DNA of 5,971 bases from Planctomycetota bacterium (GTDB taxonomy: Bacteria; Planctomycetota; Brocadiia; JAJRTI01). The notes under the pieces were generated by a model. That model made no database searches. It was not told the origin of the DNA and worked only from the letters and a program-made list of their open reading frames with translations. Numbering within the stretch: position 1 is the first letter of the stretch; each line of letters begins with the position of its first letter. Below, piece by piece: positions 885 to 5,971 of this stretch. The DNA is taken from contig JAJRTI010000325.1 of assembly GCA_024278415.1 (NCBI GenBank), positions 1-5,971 on the forward strand, given 5' to 3'. The position numbers and the translations under genes are program-made.

Positions 885-2573
885 TCAGTTCGTGTGCAGC
901 GGCTTCGCGCGTTGGCGCACAGCGTCGCCGAACGCGGGCAGCAACTTGTACTTGTTGCGCCACGTGGTGTACATGATGCCGCGGCACTTGGGCGTGCGGT
1001 TGCAGGTGTCGATCCAGCCGTTGATGTTGTCGAGCGTGTCGCCATCGTAGTACGCGCCGGCGAGCGTGGCGAAGCCGAGCTTGGAGAAGAAGCTCATGCT
1101 GGCCTCGCGTTTCTTGAAATACCAGCACGCGATCACGAGGTCCTTGGGCACGTGCTCCCACGAGCCGGTGAAGTCGCCGTCCACGAGGTAGTAGTTGCCG
1201 TGCGCGTTGTGGTTGGGGTCGAGCATGTCGGACCAGGCGTAGACCTGGGCATCGGGCCGGACCTGGCGAATGATCTGGACCTGCTTGGTGATGCAGTCTC
1301 CGAGGATTTCGCCCATGGTCATGCCCCGCGCTTTGCAGGCCGCGCACGAGCCGCCGGCGCGGATCTCGTCCATGCTGAGAAACCACTGGGCTGGGTCGAG
1401 GTGCTTCTTGATCGCGGCCGCGGACTCACGCCACAGGTCGTAGAGCTTGGGCTCGGACATGCACACGCTCACCTGCCCGCGGTTGATGGCGACGCCGTGG
1501 TAGTAACTCACGAGCAGGCGCTGGCCGTCGCGGATGCGGCTGTTGGGCGTGAGTTGGATCGTGGGGCTGTCCGCGCGCGGGCGGCGGAAGTTGAGCTTGT
1601 CGTCGCGGATGGGCTCGAAATCCCGGCCTTCCTCGTACGCGACGCCGTCTTCGCTCTTGACGCTGATGGGCGCGCCTGGCCGGCGGATCACGTTCACGAG
1701 CGCAAGGGGGTCGATGCGGAAGTCGTCGAGCCAGACCTTGCCCGACTTCCCGCCCCACACGCCAGCGTAGATGCGGACGCGATCGTATTGAAGACTGTTG
1801 AAGATGAGCGACACCCGGCGCCAGCCCGTGGTCGGCTGAATGCGAACCCTCAGCGGAGCGATCGGGCCTTTGGGGCTGTAGACCTGCACCCTGAACGCGT
1901 TCGTCGGCTCCAGCGACTCCGTCTTGACCCAACACGAGACGCGGTACTGGCCGTAGGGCCGCACCGCGACGATTTGCATGACCCGGCCGTGGCCGTGCTT
2001 GAACTTGCCGAAGCCCTCGAACCGCAGCGAGGCCTTGCCGCTGTGGCGAACCGCGGTATCCACGAATGACACCTGGCCGGGCTTGTCGTGGAAGTTGTAG
2101 CCGGCCATGCGGTTGCCCGTGAACTCCTCGAAGCCAGGGTTGGCGAACGCGGTCTCGCGTTCAGGCGCCAAACGCGCCACACCGCCCTTGGCGACAAACG
2201 GCGCGTCGCGGCACGGCAGCCCCGCGGCGAGGTTGGGATCAATGCCGAGACACGTGCCGTACCCGACACTCCAGATGATCGGAATGATGTCGATGCCCTT
2301 GGCCCGGCAGATGGCTTTGACGCGGTCGAGCCGCGCGAGCCGGTCCGGCTTCCATCGGCCCACGGCTTCGAGCCCTCCGGCGAGCACCATGCCGTTGAGG
2401 CCATGCTGGCTCGCAGTGGCCACGATCTGCTCGATGTCGGCGACATGCTCGTCGCGCGTGAGGCTGCGTGAGACGTAGACCCAGCGCTTGGGGTAGGGCG
2501 CTTGTTGGGCCGCGAGCAGAGGCGCGGCGCCGGCGCAAAAGAAGGCGGCGGCCAATAGGGTATTGATCTTCAT
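885..2573 (-). CDS. Secreted glycosidase-like protein with an inserted carbohydrate-binding-like domain
   Basis: A 562-residue protein with a Sec signal peptide (MKINTLLAAAFFCAGAAPLLAA, cleavage near residue 22). The layout suggests a TIM barrel split by an insertion. Barrel-like strands come first (VYVSRSL 32-38, GMVLAGG 61-67, IDIIPIIW 94-101). A CBM4/9-like beta-sandwich follows from NPGFEE (145-150) to VWLDDFRID (280-288). After a linker, barrel elements resume at about 368. The motif SMDEIRAGG (400-408) carries adjacent Asp402-Glu403, as in GH20-type substrate-assisted hexosaminidases, so a glycosidase role on an extracellular glycan is inferred. Cys410 and Cys413 form a CxxC. YAWSDMLDP (445-453) and YTTWRNKYK (535-543) look like further barrel-end motifs. 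The first ATG of the long frame, 50 codons upstream, is rejected because the signal peptide begins at this ATG. The Shine-Dalgarno is weak. Family assignment is uncertain; the secreted carbohydrate-active character is more secure. Confidence 0.75.
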   Translation of the reverse strand: MKINTLLAAAFFCAGAAPLLAAQQAPYPKRWVYVSRSLTRDEHVADIEQIVATASQHGLNGMVLAGGLEAVGRWKPDRLARLDRVKAICRAKGIDIIPIIWSVGYGTCLGIDPNLAAGLPCRDAPFVAKGGVARLAPERETAFANPGFEEFTGNRMAGYNFHDKPGQVSFVDTAVRHSGKASLRFEGFGKFKHGHGRVMQIVAVRPYGQYRVSCWVKTESLEPTNAFRVQVYSPKGPIAPLRVRIQPTTGWRRVSLIFNSLQYDRVRIYAGVWGGKSGKVWLDDFRIDPLALVNVIRRPGAPISVKSEDGVAYEEGRDFEPIRDDKLNFRRPRADSPTIQLTPNSRIRDGQRLLVSYYHGVAINRGQVSVCMSEPKLYDLWRESAAAIKKHLDPAQWFLSMDEIRAGGSCAACKARGMTMGEILGDCITKQVQIIRQVRPDAQVYAWSDMLDPNHNAHGNYYLVDGDFTGSWEHVPKDLVIACWYFKKREASMSFFSKLGFATLAGAYYDGDTLDNINGWIDTCNRTPKCRGIMYTTWRNKYKLLPAFGDAVRQRAKPLHTN

Positions 2574-2838: not shown

Positions 2839-3816
2839 GTGAGCCCCATCATCTATCGTGCACTGGAGGGCGGCGACGTGTTGCCGTTCGAGGCGCCTCT
2901 CCGGGAGCTTGACGAGCAGATCGAGGCTTTGCGCCGCTCCGCCCGGGAGGCGGACCTCGACGCGGCGGACGCTCTGGCCAGCGAACGGGCGGACGTGCGC
3001 CGGCGCATCTATGCCAATCTCACGCCTTGGGATCGCGTGTGCTTGGCGCGGCATCCGGGCCGGCCCACCGCGGACGACTACCTGGCCGGCATGTGCGATG
3101 ATTGTTTCGAACTACGCGGCGACCGGCGAAGCGCCGATGACCCGGCCATGTTTGCCGGCCTGGCGAACGTAGGGGGCCGGCGCATCGTAATCATTGCCGA
3201 CCGCAAGGGCCACGCGGCGGGCGAGAATCGAGACATGGGCTTCGGCATGGCCAAGCCGGAAGGCTACCGCAAAGCGTTGCGCGCGATGAAGCTCGCGGAG
3301 AAATTCGGCCTGCCGGTCGTCTCGCTCATTGACACCCCCGGCGCGAGCCCGACCATCGACGCGGAGGACCGCGGCCAGGCGCAGGCCATCGCGGAGAACC
3401 TCGCTGCCATGAGCCAACTGCGCACGCCCATTCTGTCGCTCATCGTGGGTGAGGGCGGGAGCGCCGGCGCGCTGGCCATCGGCATGGCCGATTGGCTGGG
3501 CCTGTTGGAAAATGCGTATTACACCGTCGTGTCGCCCGAAGGCGCGGCCGCGGTGCTGTGGCACGACCCGGAGCGCGCAGCCGATGCCGCACAAGCGCTC
3601 AAGCTGACCGCGCACGAACTCGTCGAGTTGGGCATCGCGGACGACGTCATCGCCGAGCCTTTCAGCGCGGCCCACATGGACAAGCTCGCGACGGTCGAGT
3701 GCGTGCGGGAGGCCCTCATTCAGCAAGTCGACCGCTTTGCCAGCGAGCCCGTCGACGATCTCCTGGCCCGCCGCTACGCGCACTACCGGCATGTCGGCGT
3801 CGCCCCGAATGGTTGA
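2839..3816 (+). CDS. accA: Acetyl-CoA carboxylase carboxyltransferase subunit alpha
   Basis: The cytoplasmic alpha subunit of the carboxyltransferase that, with AccD, transfers the carboxyl group from biotin carboxyl-carrier protein to acetyl-CoA, making malonyl-CoA for fatty acid synthesis. From the GTG start it has 325 residues, close to E. coli AccA (319). Family landmarks run in order: helical N-terminus with ELDEQIEAL (23-31), ARHPGRPTADDY (70-81), ELRGDR (91-96), GFGMAKPEGYRKALR (135-149), IDTPGAS (164-170), the glycine-rich GEGGSAGALAIG (204-215) and VSPEGAAAVLW (231-241). E. coli has DTPGAYPG where this protein has DTPGASPT, so Tyr is Ser and Gly is Thr near the active site. GTG 2839 is preferred over TTG 2803 (12 codons upstream) on Shine-Dalgarno and promoter spacing. 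The last two codons and the stop lie inside the 7-base repeat at 3808. No accD is in the window, and a YkgJ-like gene follows 68 bases later. Confidence 0.95.
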   Translation: MSPIIYRALEGGDVLPFEAPLRELDEQIEALRRSAREADLDAADALASERADVRRRIYANLTPWDRVCLARHPGRPTADDYLAGMCDDCFELRGDRRSADDPAMFAGLANVGGRRIVIIADRKGHAAGENRDMGFGMAKPEGYRKALRAMKLAEKFGLPVVSLIDTPGASPTIDAEDRGQAQAIAENLAAMSQLRTPILSLIVGEGGSAGALAIGMADWLGLLENAYYTVVSPEGAAAVLWHDPERAADAAQALKLTAHELVELGIADDVIAEPFSAAHMDKLATVECVREALIQQVDRFASEPVDDLLARRYAHYRHVGVAPNG

Positions 3817-3880
3817 TGGCTGGTGGCTAATGGGGCCGAGTCCTTCTGCATAAACCATCAACCATTGACCCTCAACCATT
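3808..3880. repeat. Inverted array of 7-base repeats between accA and the YkgJ-like gene
   Basis: Rightward 7-base units start at 3808, 3815, 3822 and 3829 (AATGGTT, GATGGCT, GGTGGCT, AATGGGG). Leftward units, read on the minus strand from 3880, are AATGGTT, GAGGGTC, AATGGTT, GATGGTT and TATGCAG. Together they make an inverted array. Bases 3808-3819 (AATGGTTGATGG) and 3855-3866 (CCATCAACCATT) are a perfect 12-bp stem with a 35-base loop. The array starts inside accA, giving it Asn-Gly-stop, and ends four bases before the next ATG. It fills nearly all of the 68-base gap and may act as an attenuator, a partial terminator or a mobile repeat. Confidence 0.7.
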
Positions 3881-3884
3881 CCGC

Positions 3885-4298
3885 ATGATAGTTCCTCTCG
3901 ACCAAGACCTCCTTGCGGTCTACGCGGCGCTTGATAACGAGATCGCGGCCGCGGCTCCCTCGTGCCGCGCGTGCGGGGAGTGTTGCGACTTCCCCAAGCA
4001 GGGGTTCACGCTCTTCGCGACCACGGCGGAGGTCGAGTTAGCCTTACGCCTGGGGCCAGGGCCGGGACGCTGGACGAATCGCCAGTTCTGCCCCTTCCAG
4101 GCCGGCGGCAAGTGCGCGAACCGGCGCTGTCGCCCCCTCGGGTGCCGCACGTATTTTTGTGACGCTGCGTTCGGCGACACCGGGCCGGTGCTCTATGGCA
4201 GGTATCACGATGCGATCAAGGCCGCCATCGACCGGCACGGACACGAGTATCAGTACGGGCCGTACCTGGAGCTGCTGGCGGACGCGTGGGAACGCTAG
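3885..4298 (+). CDS. YkgJ-family cysteine-cluster protein (putative zinc/iron chelating)
   Basis: A 137-residue soluble protein with nine cysteines in the YkgJ/CxxCxxCC pattern. The cluster CRACGECC is at 27-34, and further cysteines lie at 69 (FCPF), 77, 82, 87 and 92, ending in CRPLGCRTYFC (82-92). Members of this family are thought to bind zinc or an iron-sulfur centre, but no reaction is established for most of them, and I cannot assign a substrate. The C-terminal third (about 100-137) is helical and rich in His and Tyr, with no cysteine. The length is normal for a stand-alone member. The ATG at 3885 is the only sensible start; it lacks a Shine-Dalgarno and is preceded almost directly by the heptad repeat array. 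The gene could share the accA transcript or be translated through coupling, and ends just before two strong hairpins. Confidence 0.85.
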   Translation: MIVPLDQDLLAVYAALDNEIAAAAPSCRACGECCDFPKQGFTLFATTAEVELALRLGPGPGRWTNRQFCPFQAGGKCANRRCRPLGCRTYFCDAAFGDTGPVLYGRYHDAIKAAIDRHGHEYQYGPYLELLADAWER

Positions 4299-4367: not shown

Positions 4368-5423
<1,056 letters not shown>

Positions 5424-5428
5424 GGGAG

Positions 5429-5436
5429 TCCTCCCT
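5429..5436 (-). promoter_or_regulatory. Strong Shine-Dalgarno of the polyol dehydrogenase gene
   Basis: On the minus strand, AGGGAGGA lies five bases before the ATG at 5423. It fixes the first Met over the alternative Met7. It is the clearest ribosome binding site in the window, whereas the other genes have weak or no sites. Confidence 0.75.
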
Positions 5437-5467
5437 CATGCGATGTGTTGTTGGTGGGTGTGAGGGC

Positions 5468-5496
5468 AGTATAGCGTTGATAGTGGCAGCAGGCCA
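5468..5496 (-). promoter_or_regulatory. Possible promoter of the polyol dehydrogenase gene
   Basis: On the minus strand, TATACT (5468-5473) matches the -10 consensus at five of six positions. A weak -35 (TGGCCT, 5491-5496) stands 17 bases upstream. The predicted leader is about 38 bases. The -35 overlaps the edge of the repeat region, so the repeats could influence this promoter. Confidence 0.42.
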
Positions 5497-5497
5497 G

Positions 5498-5578
5498 ATG
5501 TGGTGCGTCGCCACACCTCAGGGCACTCGCGGCGGACGGCCTCGTCCGCCGTTGCGCGTCATCCGCTCATGTGGTGCG
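5498..5578. repeat. Direct repeat ATGTGGTGCG flanking a 9-bp hairpin
   Basis: ATGTGGTGCG occurs at 5498-5507 and again at 5569-5578, 71 bases apart. Between them, CGGCGGACG (5530-5538) and CGTCCGCCG (5543-5551) make a perfect 9-bp stem with a 4-base loop (GCCT). The first repeat also folds on itself: TGTGG (5499-5503) pairs with CCACA (5511-5515). The layout, short direct repeats around a hairpin, is that of a small non-coding repeat element. No protein-coding signal is visible here. Confidence 0.5.
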
Positions 5579-5590
5579 GGACGAGGGCAT

Positions 5591-5689
5591 CTGCCCCAAA
5601 GGGGCAGCGGATATCAGCCCAGGGTTGCGAGCGCAGCTCGCTACCCTGGGTGCGAGGATGTGCGAATCCAACGTTCCCTGAAAGGGAAC
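5591..5689 (+). repeat. Three-hairpin repeat element, copy 1
   Basis: Hairpin 1 is CTGCCCC/GGGGCAG (5591-5607, loop AAA). The 10-base linker CGGATATCAG (5608-5617) follows. Hairpin 2 spans 5618-5650: outer arms CCCAGGGT and ACCCTGGG, a T-T mismatch, then inner arms GCGAGC and GCTCGC with loop GCA. After 22 bases comes hairpin 3, GTTCCCT/AGGGAAC (5673-5689, loop GAA). The same order and linker recur in inverted orientation at 5783-5875. It resembles REP-like or other non-autonomous hairpin repeats dispersed in bacterial genomes; no transposase is in the window. Confidence 0.85.
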
Positions 5690-5782
5690 CAGAAACCCCG
5701 AGGCCCAGTCAGTCCCAGATGGACCTGTCATCGTACATGGGATCCTTCTTCGTCCTTGTCGGTAGACGGCAAATGCGTTCCG
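5690..5782. other. Spacer between the two inverted three-hairpin copies
   Basis: These 93 bases separate the two copies. They are noticeably less GC-rich than the genes and hold no convincing coding sequence. A weak inverted pair, TCCCA (5713-5717) and TGGGA (5738-5742), is the only structure I see. If the two copies and the spacer move as a unit, this is its core. Confidence 0.4.
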
Positions 5783-5875
5783 CATCCCTTTCAGGGATGT
5801 GGTCTGTGGGGGGGCATCGCTCTCCCAAGGTAGCTTCGCAACCTTGGGCTGATATCCGCATCCCCGTTGGGGATG
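5783..5875 (-). repeat. Three-hairpin repeat element, copy 2 (inverted)
   Basis: Read on the minus strand, hairpin 1 is CATCCCC/GGGGATG (5859-5875, loop AAC). The linker CGGATATCAG (5849-5858) is identical to copy 1. Hairpin 2 spans 5824-5848: outer arms CCCAAGGT and ACCTTGGG, a T-T mismatch, and a shortened inner stem GC/GC with loop GAA. After 24 bases comes hairpin 3, CATCCCT/AGGGATG (5783-5799, loop GAA). Sequence changes relative to copy 1 fall as compensatory pairs in all three stems, and the inner stem of hairpin 2 is shortened symmetrically. Confidence 0.85.
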
Positions 5876-5878
5876 GCC

Positions 5879-5890
5879 GAGCCGCGGCTC
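5879..5890. repeat. Perfect 12-bp palindrome at a stop codon
   Basis: GAGCCGCGGCTC is a perfect palindrome without a loop. It begins three bases after copy 2 of the three-hairpin element and overlaps the stop codon (5889-5891) of the truncated minus-strand gene by two bases. It could be a protein-binding site, the outer boundary of the repeat, or chance in GC-rich DNA. Confidence 0.45.
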
Positions 5891-5971
5891 AACCCTCCAA
5901 CCCGTACAGCTCGACGCCATTGTCGTGGAGCATCTGCCCCGCGAGGCGCATCGCGGCCTCCTCGCTCAGGA
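5889..5971 (-). CDS. 3' end of a truncated gene, possibly an amidohydrolase
   Basis: Only the last 26 codons and the TGA are in the window; the rest lies beyond the right edge. The tail reads LSEEAAMRLAGQ then MLHDNGVELYGLEG. A helix followed by a segment like N-x-x-x-L-Y-G-L at the very C-terminus is the usual ending of amidohydrolase-2 type TIM-barrel metal hydrolases (compare ILxxNAxRLYGL). That resemblance is the only ground for the guess. The frame is coding-like, in contrast to the repeats next to it. Active-site residues cannot be checked here. Confidence 0.5.
   Translation of the reverse strand, partial: LSEEAAMRLAGQMLHDNGVELYGLEG

Follow-up and report, generated by a model that had tools for sequence, protein, structure and literature searches.

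Two inverted copies of a three-hairpin element were found near the end of the window (the whole stretch of planctomycete DNA analysed here, 5,971 nucleotides). They most probably represent the two terminal inverted repeats, left and right, of a small element that is non-autonomous and comparable to a REPIN or a MITE, in a family served by an IS200-like Y1 (HUH) transposase of the Y-x-x-x-Q type (TnpA). The location of the two copies, of their hairpins (H1 to H3) and of their flanking genes is as follows.

4368..5423, minus strand: gene of a zinc-binding alcohol-dehydrogenase-type protein (ADH_N and ADH_zinc_N); the element lies upstream of its start
5589..5696, plus strand: element copy 1, whole (H1, linker, H2, spacer, H3, tail); model R1, 68.1 bits, 1e-15
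5591..5607, plus strand: copy 1 hairpin 1, CTGCCCC AAA GGGGCAG; direct reading and fold
5592..5650, minus strand: sub-threshold match to Rfam RF01687 (Acido-Lenti-1), spanning hairpins 2 and 1 of copy 1 read in reverse complement; 29.9 bits (gathering 37), E 5.7e-5
5608..5617, plus strand: copy 1 linker CGGATATCAG, identical to that of copy 2; direct reading
5618..5650, plus strand: copy 1 hairpin 2, with a T-T mismatch and a 6-pair inner stem; direct reading and fold
5673..5689, plus strand: copy 1 hairpin 3, GTTCCCT GAA AGGGAAC; direct reading and fold
5697..5775, no strand: 79-nt spacer separating the two inward-pointing copies, site of the transposase gene in related loci; model R1 and relatives
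5776..5877, minus strand: element copy 2, whole; model R1, 43.0 bits, 1.1e-9
5779-5782, minus strand: copy 2 tail CGGA after hairpin 3; direct reading
5783..5799, minus strand: copy 2 hairpin 3, CATCCCT GAA AGGGATG; direct reading and fold
5824..5848, minus strand: copy 2 hairpin 2, inner stem reduced to 2 pairs; direct reading and fold
5849..5858, minus strand: copy 2 linker CGGATATCAG; direct reading
5859..5875, minus strand: copy 2 hairpin 1, CATCCCC AAC GGGGATG; direct reading
5889..5971, minus strand: putative 3' end of the next gene (stop at 5889-5891), a 26-residue open frame before the stop

Direct reading places both three-hairpin copies exactly where the original prediction had located them and recovers the features said to be common to them, namely the order of the hairpins, the linker CGGATATCAG, the T-T mismatch in hairpin 2 and the GAA loop in hairpin 3. 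The stem differences are indeed paired, with two base pairs changed in hairpin 1, one in the outer stem of hairpin 2 and two in hairpin 3, and the inner stem of hairpin 2 is shortened from 6 to 2 pairs, as had also been claimed. Identity between the two copies is 65.5%, and an inverted-repeat search detects two matches between them, I1 (37 nt, with 89% complementarity) and I15 (20 nt, 85%). When compared to shuffled sequences, the fold of copy 1 has a z-score of -4.8 (0/200 as good) and that of copy 2 is weaker (z -2.3, 7/200 as good). Tails at the window hairpins read CGGA or CAGA, and the CGGA contained in the linker is the tail adjoining the foot of hairpin 1. The two copies are bounded on one side by the start of the dehydrogenase gene, whose nearest relative among 392 genomes is 55% identical, and on the other by what may be the 3' end of a further gene on the minus strand. 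Hairpin 1 of copy 2 starts 13 nt beyond the stop codon of the latter. No transposase gene occurs within the 5971-base window. A consensus scan, which is a weak test, returned no candidate promoter between 5400 and 5971, nor any candidate terminator inside the element, and the hypothesis that the elements act as transcription terminators was dropped on the latter result.

Elsewhere in the window, a second and unrelated type of repeat corresponds to the intergenic inverted repeat I4 (3807-3881), which is made of units resembling ATGGTTGATGG and separates an accA-like gene from its neighbour; positions 1-13 carry a comparable string. For AccA, the closest relatives reach 69% and 67%, and those bearing a name among at least 120 matches, at about 50%, belong to Planctomycetales, to several groups of Verrucomicrobiota and to Omnitrophica. 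Two predicted products have no Pfam match at E 0.001: a 562-aa protein (885-2573, minus strand) and a small cysteine-cluster protein with CxxCxxCC near its start (3885-4298, plus strand).

A pattern combining the linker and hairpin 2 was used to scan the genome collection and returned six stretches, five of which are located in three uncultured Schlesneria MAGs (Planctomycetota). The sixth, in Planctomycetaceae HKST-UBA56 (locus L005), was discarded as a chance match having neither hairpin 1 nor hairpin 3, with 0 further matches in that genome. This three-hairpin element recurs at the Schlesneria loci in several copies whose orientation alternates, and when one mismatch was allowed the pattern occurred in 15, 10 and 13 copies in the three genomes while the reversed pattern gave 0; the linker of many of these copies reads CGGATAYCAG, with variants. 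A covariance model, R1, was then built from 18 copies of these three MAGs only, with no window sequence, 10 of the 28 Schlesneria copies of alignment A3 having been excluded because their hairpin 1 or 2 was out of register. In an unfiltered scan of the window, R1 retrieved copy 1 and copy 2 with the scores given above, and the next best of its 17 rows (14.8 bits, 0.0066) was copy 1 read on the opposite strand; these E-values are rough because model calibration was shortened. The window pair is thus not a chance resemblance. R1 matches were detected in 20 of 99 Planctomycetota genomes, with at least 39 copies in each of two genomes (39/39 scored). A second model, R2, derived from 57 matches, among them those of the window and none from Schlesneria, matched 115 of 392 Planctomycetota genomes in a survey in which 10 candidates were scored per genome. 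The element is therefore a dispersed structured family in Planctomycetota. Neither of the two outcomes set in the original prediction as refuting, a lack of further copies and unpaired stem differences, occurred in these relatives.

Several equal-scoring copies lie within about 150 nt of contig starts in three genomes (G026, G036 and G045), as would be expected of recently amplified repeats breaking assemblies. Tandem arrangements also occur: units of hairpin 1 and hairpin 2 are placed head to tail at one locus (L046, genome G084), and matches to RF01687 follow one another on one strand at 67-68-nt steps in G045 (C181, C360). These arrays suggest that hairpin 3 is a repeated hairpin 1.

The claim that the fold is the conserved feature is supported by the alignment of 54 distinct copies (A5), in which 93.4% of cells are paired, 25 of 26 pairs show changes on both sides, and the covariation score reaches 0.397 versus 0.123 when shuffled and at most 0.077 when slid; A5 leans towards the proposed structure because it was fitted to the model, and it includes a wrong-strand reading (L055 1506-1628 +) of a copy already present as another row. 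In the MAFFT alignment A4, covariation is 0.223 versus 0.095 when shuffled and at most 0.074 when slid, the number of pair types being no higher than in shuffles (13 vs 13.1). Counts of G-T versus A-C, which bear on the folding strand, are 13 to 2 in A4 and 21 to 17 in A5. Pairing is imperfect in Schlesneria, where 8 of the 18 copies have two broken pairs in the inner stem of hairpin 2. The loops of hairpins 1 and 3 resemble each other, with CGAAG or TGAAA in hairpin 1 of 33/54 copies and TGAAA, TGAAG or TGTAA in hairpin 3 of 35/54.

The tails differ across the family, and within an element the tail of hairpin 1 resembles that of hairpin 3 (3.44 matches out of 7 versus 2.78 when shuffled, 0/2000; control segments 2.65 and 2.73 of 7) in a comparison of the 7 nt following each hairpin that covers 52 of the 54 rows, was chosen after seeing the data and ignores kinship. 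The guide sequences of IS200 and REP elements are described as lying 5' of a hairpin foot (Quentin 2018, PMC6006769), and the tails of H1 and H3 fall 5' of a hairpin foot when the element is read on the opposite strand. By analogy, this position hints at a guide-like role.

In all three Schlesneria genomes, a gene for a Y1 transposase of about 150 aa (PF01797) was found near element copies. Two TnpAs of this type that were scored in full reach 59.4 and 58.6 bits with the NCBIfam model of IS200/IS605 transposases (NF033573, cut-off 55) as compared to 19.2 and 22.8 with the RAYT model (NF047646, cut-off 80). All 16 members of a larger alignment (A6) match NF033573 at E <= 0.001, and 11 of the 16 also match the RAYT model at this threshold, with 6.5e-7 at best. 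The A6 sequences display the motifs DH[VIL]H, WQ and Y-x-x-x-Q-x-x-[HR]H, with D54, H55, H57, W95, Q96, Y115, Q119 and H123 invariant over the 16 rows and H122 present in at least 90% (L080 has RH, and L072 has DHLH); as an alignment, A6 thus agrees with the motif set of TnpA subclass 1.2 (DH[IV]H, WQ, Y---Q--HH).

This TnpA occurs in 18 of the 99 genomes, 15 of which are among the 20 with R1 matches, and the remaining three carry R2 matches, so that all 18 belong to the 23 genomes in which the element was detected by R1 or R2. Y1 transposases of any type were found in 62/99 genomes, which indicates that the element tracks one type of TnpA and not Y1 transposases in general. In the 392-genome set, in which TnpA was searched at E <= 1e-20, 87 genomes possess the transposase and 82 of these also possess the element, with 33 genomes having the element only, 5 TnpA only and 272 neither (Fisher p 1.5e-50, kinship not controlled). 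The 33 of 115 element genomes with no match to a TnpA of subclass 1.2 type in this search, and the 3 of 23 element genomes of the 99-set with no match to any Y1 (G045, G084 and G093), could be accounted for by MAG gaps or gene loss. Conversely, divergent ends are possible in the five TnpA genomes having no R2 match (G170, G213, G265, G279 and G370).

Among the 58 TnpA matches in the 99 genomes, 30 loci were read, some of which are gene fragments. Inward-pointing copies of the element occur within 200 bp of tnpA on both sides in 17 of the 30 loci, on one side in 7 and on neither in 6, a count based on 84 of 95 model rows that becomes 18/6/6 when all rows are used and 17/6/7 at E <= 0.001. Autonomous units have the order [element >] tnpA [< element]. 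At four loci (L062, L067, L082 and L085) the near copies face outward and none faces inward. Ends were compared over 17 units, made up of one Persicobacter unit and the bracketed loci other than L090; in 16 of these units the left end is closest to its own right end, with a mean identity of 71% within units versus 54% between them. Since copies bracket tnpA in inverted orientation and an end generally has its best match at the other end of its own unit, they are terminal inverted repeats.

Outside Planctomycetota, 16 copies were found on the 632-kb plasmid of Persicobacter sp. JZB09 (Bacteroidota; CP012861.1), where tnpA (286852-287301) is flanked by one pair and the remainder includes six convergent pairs whose members are separated by 31-33 nt. 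On a Bernardetia plasmid of the same phylum, whose TnpA is 36% identical, no R2 match was detected at E <= 0.001. At one further locus (L079, genome G092), two copies that keep hairpins 1 and 3 but lack hairpin 2 still flank a tnpA match interrupted by in-frame stops.

The two copies of the window converge and are 79 nt apart, which is the geometry of the autonomous units without the gene, and the pair was therefore read as non-autonomous and REPIN- or MITE-like. Such pairs are common in the family: when neighbouring copies no more than 150 nt apart were compared, the 20 cases comprised 15 convergent, 3 head-to-tail and 2 divergent arrangements, a count made on 52 of 57 rows with the window, duplicate and wrong-strand rows omitted. 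The spacer is kept in repeated pairs, measuring about 50 nt in those Schlesneria pairs that form a class of about 268 bp and 31-33 nt in 6/6 Persicobacter pairs. The outer flanks of repeated pairs diverge further out, 10-40 nt or more being common to some pairs, which is what segmental duplication would give too. In one case, a pair of genome G001 has no counterpart in G002, whose syntenic gap measures 180 nt between conserved gene parts as compared to about 515 nt in G001, and the intergenic DNA around this gap is so strongly diverged that the insertion boundaries are unreadable.

By analogy with the route published for REP and IS200 elements (PMC6006769; PMC8266576), on which the following scheme is modelled, TnpA would recognise the folded hairpins on one strand of single-stranded DNA, would cut at sites fixed by the short tails beside the hairpins, and would excise and reinsert the whole pair. 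We propose that stems remain paired despite drift because the fold is what TnpA recognises, selection for this recognition keeping the pairing while the sequence changes.

A structured RNA family had been put forward in the original prediction as an alternative to a mobile element, and such a family does exist, namely Acido-Lenti-1 (RF01687), which spans two of the three hairpins. At gathering thresholds the whole window has no match in Rfam. A permissive scan of 5500-5971 returned RF01687 on the opposite strand of copy 1, below its gathering score (see above), the other six rows having E-values of 1.3 or more. Element loci from other genomes exceed this gathering score in 5 cases out of 20. 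The 46 positions of the RF01687 model align as hairpin 2, linker and hairpin 1, without hairpin 3, and the R2 element overlaps RF01687 in 10/10 loci listed. RF01687 was detected in 24 of the 99 genomes, 18 of them over the cut-off, and in 0/14 controls, and these 24 comprise all 23 element genomes plus one (G043). The latter has a single RF01687 match and no match to R1 or R2, and may represent a diverged copy or a false match. At least 53 copies occur in three genomes (53 of 55 scored), and among the matches listed RF01687 also brackets tnpA (e.g. G051:C12, G090:C24 and G065:C37).

Acido-Lenti-1 has been noted near group II introns. The family is filed as an sRNA and is qualified as "probably" RNA in Table 1 of Weinberg 2010 (PMC2864571), it has already been used in genome annotation (PMC10059132), and its function is described as little known in a 2026 paper (PMC13298647). 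A survey of the literature on Acido-Lenti-1/RF01687 and on RAYT, REP and TIRYT retrieved no link of Acido-Lenti-1 to a transposase in the main texts examined, and a search with three core strings of the element retrieved no related work among the titles examined. The alignments described above point to RF01687 as what may be transposon-end DNA, consisting of hairpins 2 and 1 of these ends on the opposite strand. Both leads, the Y1 transposase and the structured RNA family, hold and converge on the same element.

The possibility that the copies are a small RNA or an array of hairpins at mRNA 3' ends, which would act as RNA and would have hitch-hiked on a mobile element, draws on this curation as sRNA, on covariation that suits RNA as well as single-stranded DNA, and on the position of window copy 2, 13 nt past a stop codon. 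It is nevertheless improbable, since copies flank a transposase as matched inverted repeats, are found mostly as convergent pairs and reach high numbers (at least 39 with R1 in two genomes, at least 53 with RF01687 in three); the absence of promoter-like sites in 5400-5971 and of terminator-like sites in the element goes in the same direction, as a weak test.

Convergent pairs, high copy number, hairpins and a Y1 partner are all traits of canonical REPs or REPINs moved by a RAYT (TnpA-REP) instead of an IS200-like transposase, and a REP-like element with a RAYT had been one of the explanations first offered. The link to a Y1 transposase was borne out in relatives. The RAYT part was not, given that the transposases match the IS200 model in 16/16 cases, that two of them score far below the RAYT cut-off (19.2 and 22.8 vs 80), that the copies are terminal inverted repeats, and that the window hairpins have no GTAG, GTGG or CGTC foot. 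Strict membership in the REP/RAYT system is largely refuted by foot and transposase type, and this origin is very unlikely. Even less credit is given to the view that the hairpins are host-domesticated (gyrase or IHF sites, or mRNA stabilisers) and no longer mobile in the host of the window. The divergence of the two copies (65.5% identity) and the lack of tnpA in the window would fit such a situation, but it leaves the origin of the element and its pairing with tnpA unexplained, and would constitute a later role that is not exclusive of the terminal-repeat reading.

Y1 transposons with structured inverted-repeat ends and non-autonomous pairs are of an already known kind, of which the present family would be a variant. 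Among the closest arrangements are TIRtrons or TIRYTs (Di Nocera 2013, PMC3733652), in which a tyrosine transposase gene lies between long terminal inverted repeats; some of these repeats are self-complementary over part or all of their length, and in some genomes further copies occur elsewhere as dimers and clusters. However, 20 of the 26 described TIRYTs belong to subclass 2.1 and most of their repeats carry GGGGWSAS (Quentin 2018, PMC6006769), whereas the present ends are three-hairpin arrays and the present transposase has the motif of subclass 1.2. TnpA-IS200 of subclass 1.2, as described in PMC6006769, shares DH[IV]H, WQ, Y---Q--HH and a length of about 150 aa with our TnpA. In that description the subclass generally lacks typical terminal structures, has "no" in the REP column and occurs mostly in Cyanobacteria and Bacteroidetes, unlike the present TnpA, which is linked to structured ends and occurs in 87/392 Planctomycetota genomes.

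REPs and REPINs with their RAYTs are likewise short, paired, inverted hairpins in high copy number whose mobility is attributed to a Y1 transposase working on folded single-stranded DNA (PMC8266576), but REPs are 20-40 bp palindromes, most of them tagged GTAG or CGTC, and the element described here is about 100 nt long, with three hairpins and another foot. The class 3 TnpAs of Quentin (Planctomycetes and Acidobacteria, foot CnGA; PMC6006769) were also considered, since the window has CGGA 5' of hairpin 2 and since both the phylum and the "atypical secondary structures" reported for this class agree; this candidate was dropped because the motifs of the class are NHVH, W[TA] and YV[VI]-EQ versus DH[VIL]H, WQ and YI---Q in A6. 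Finally, the two-hairpin motif of RF01687 (PMC2864571) is equivalent to a reverse-strand reading of hairpins 2 and 1, but it is filed as an sRNA with neither hairpin 3 nor inverted partner nor transposase, and the window copy falls below its gathering score.

On the basis of these comparisons, we lean towards the view that Acido-Lenti-1 is not primarily an RNA and would instead represent the two outer hairpins of the three that compose each terminal inverted repeat used by HUH transposases of the Y-x-x-x-Q type (subclass 1.2), in both Planctomycetota and Bacteroidota. Hairpins 1 and 3, whose guide-like tails match, would each serve as a recognition site, one duplicating the other on either side of hairpin 2, in what would be a new architecture for the ends of Y1 elements. 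This offers a likely explanation for an Rfam "sRNA" family whose function is little known, and supplies structured ends to a TnpA subclass described as generally without terminal structures. It also provides a testable case in which stems of transposon DNA drift in sequence while their pairing is kept, so that covariation alone is no proof of RNA.
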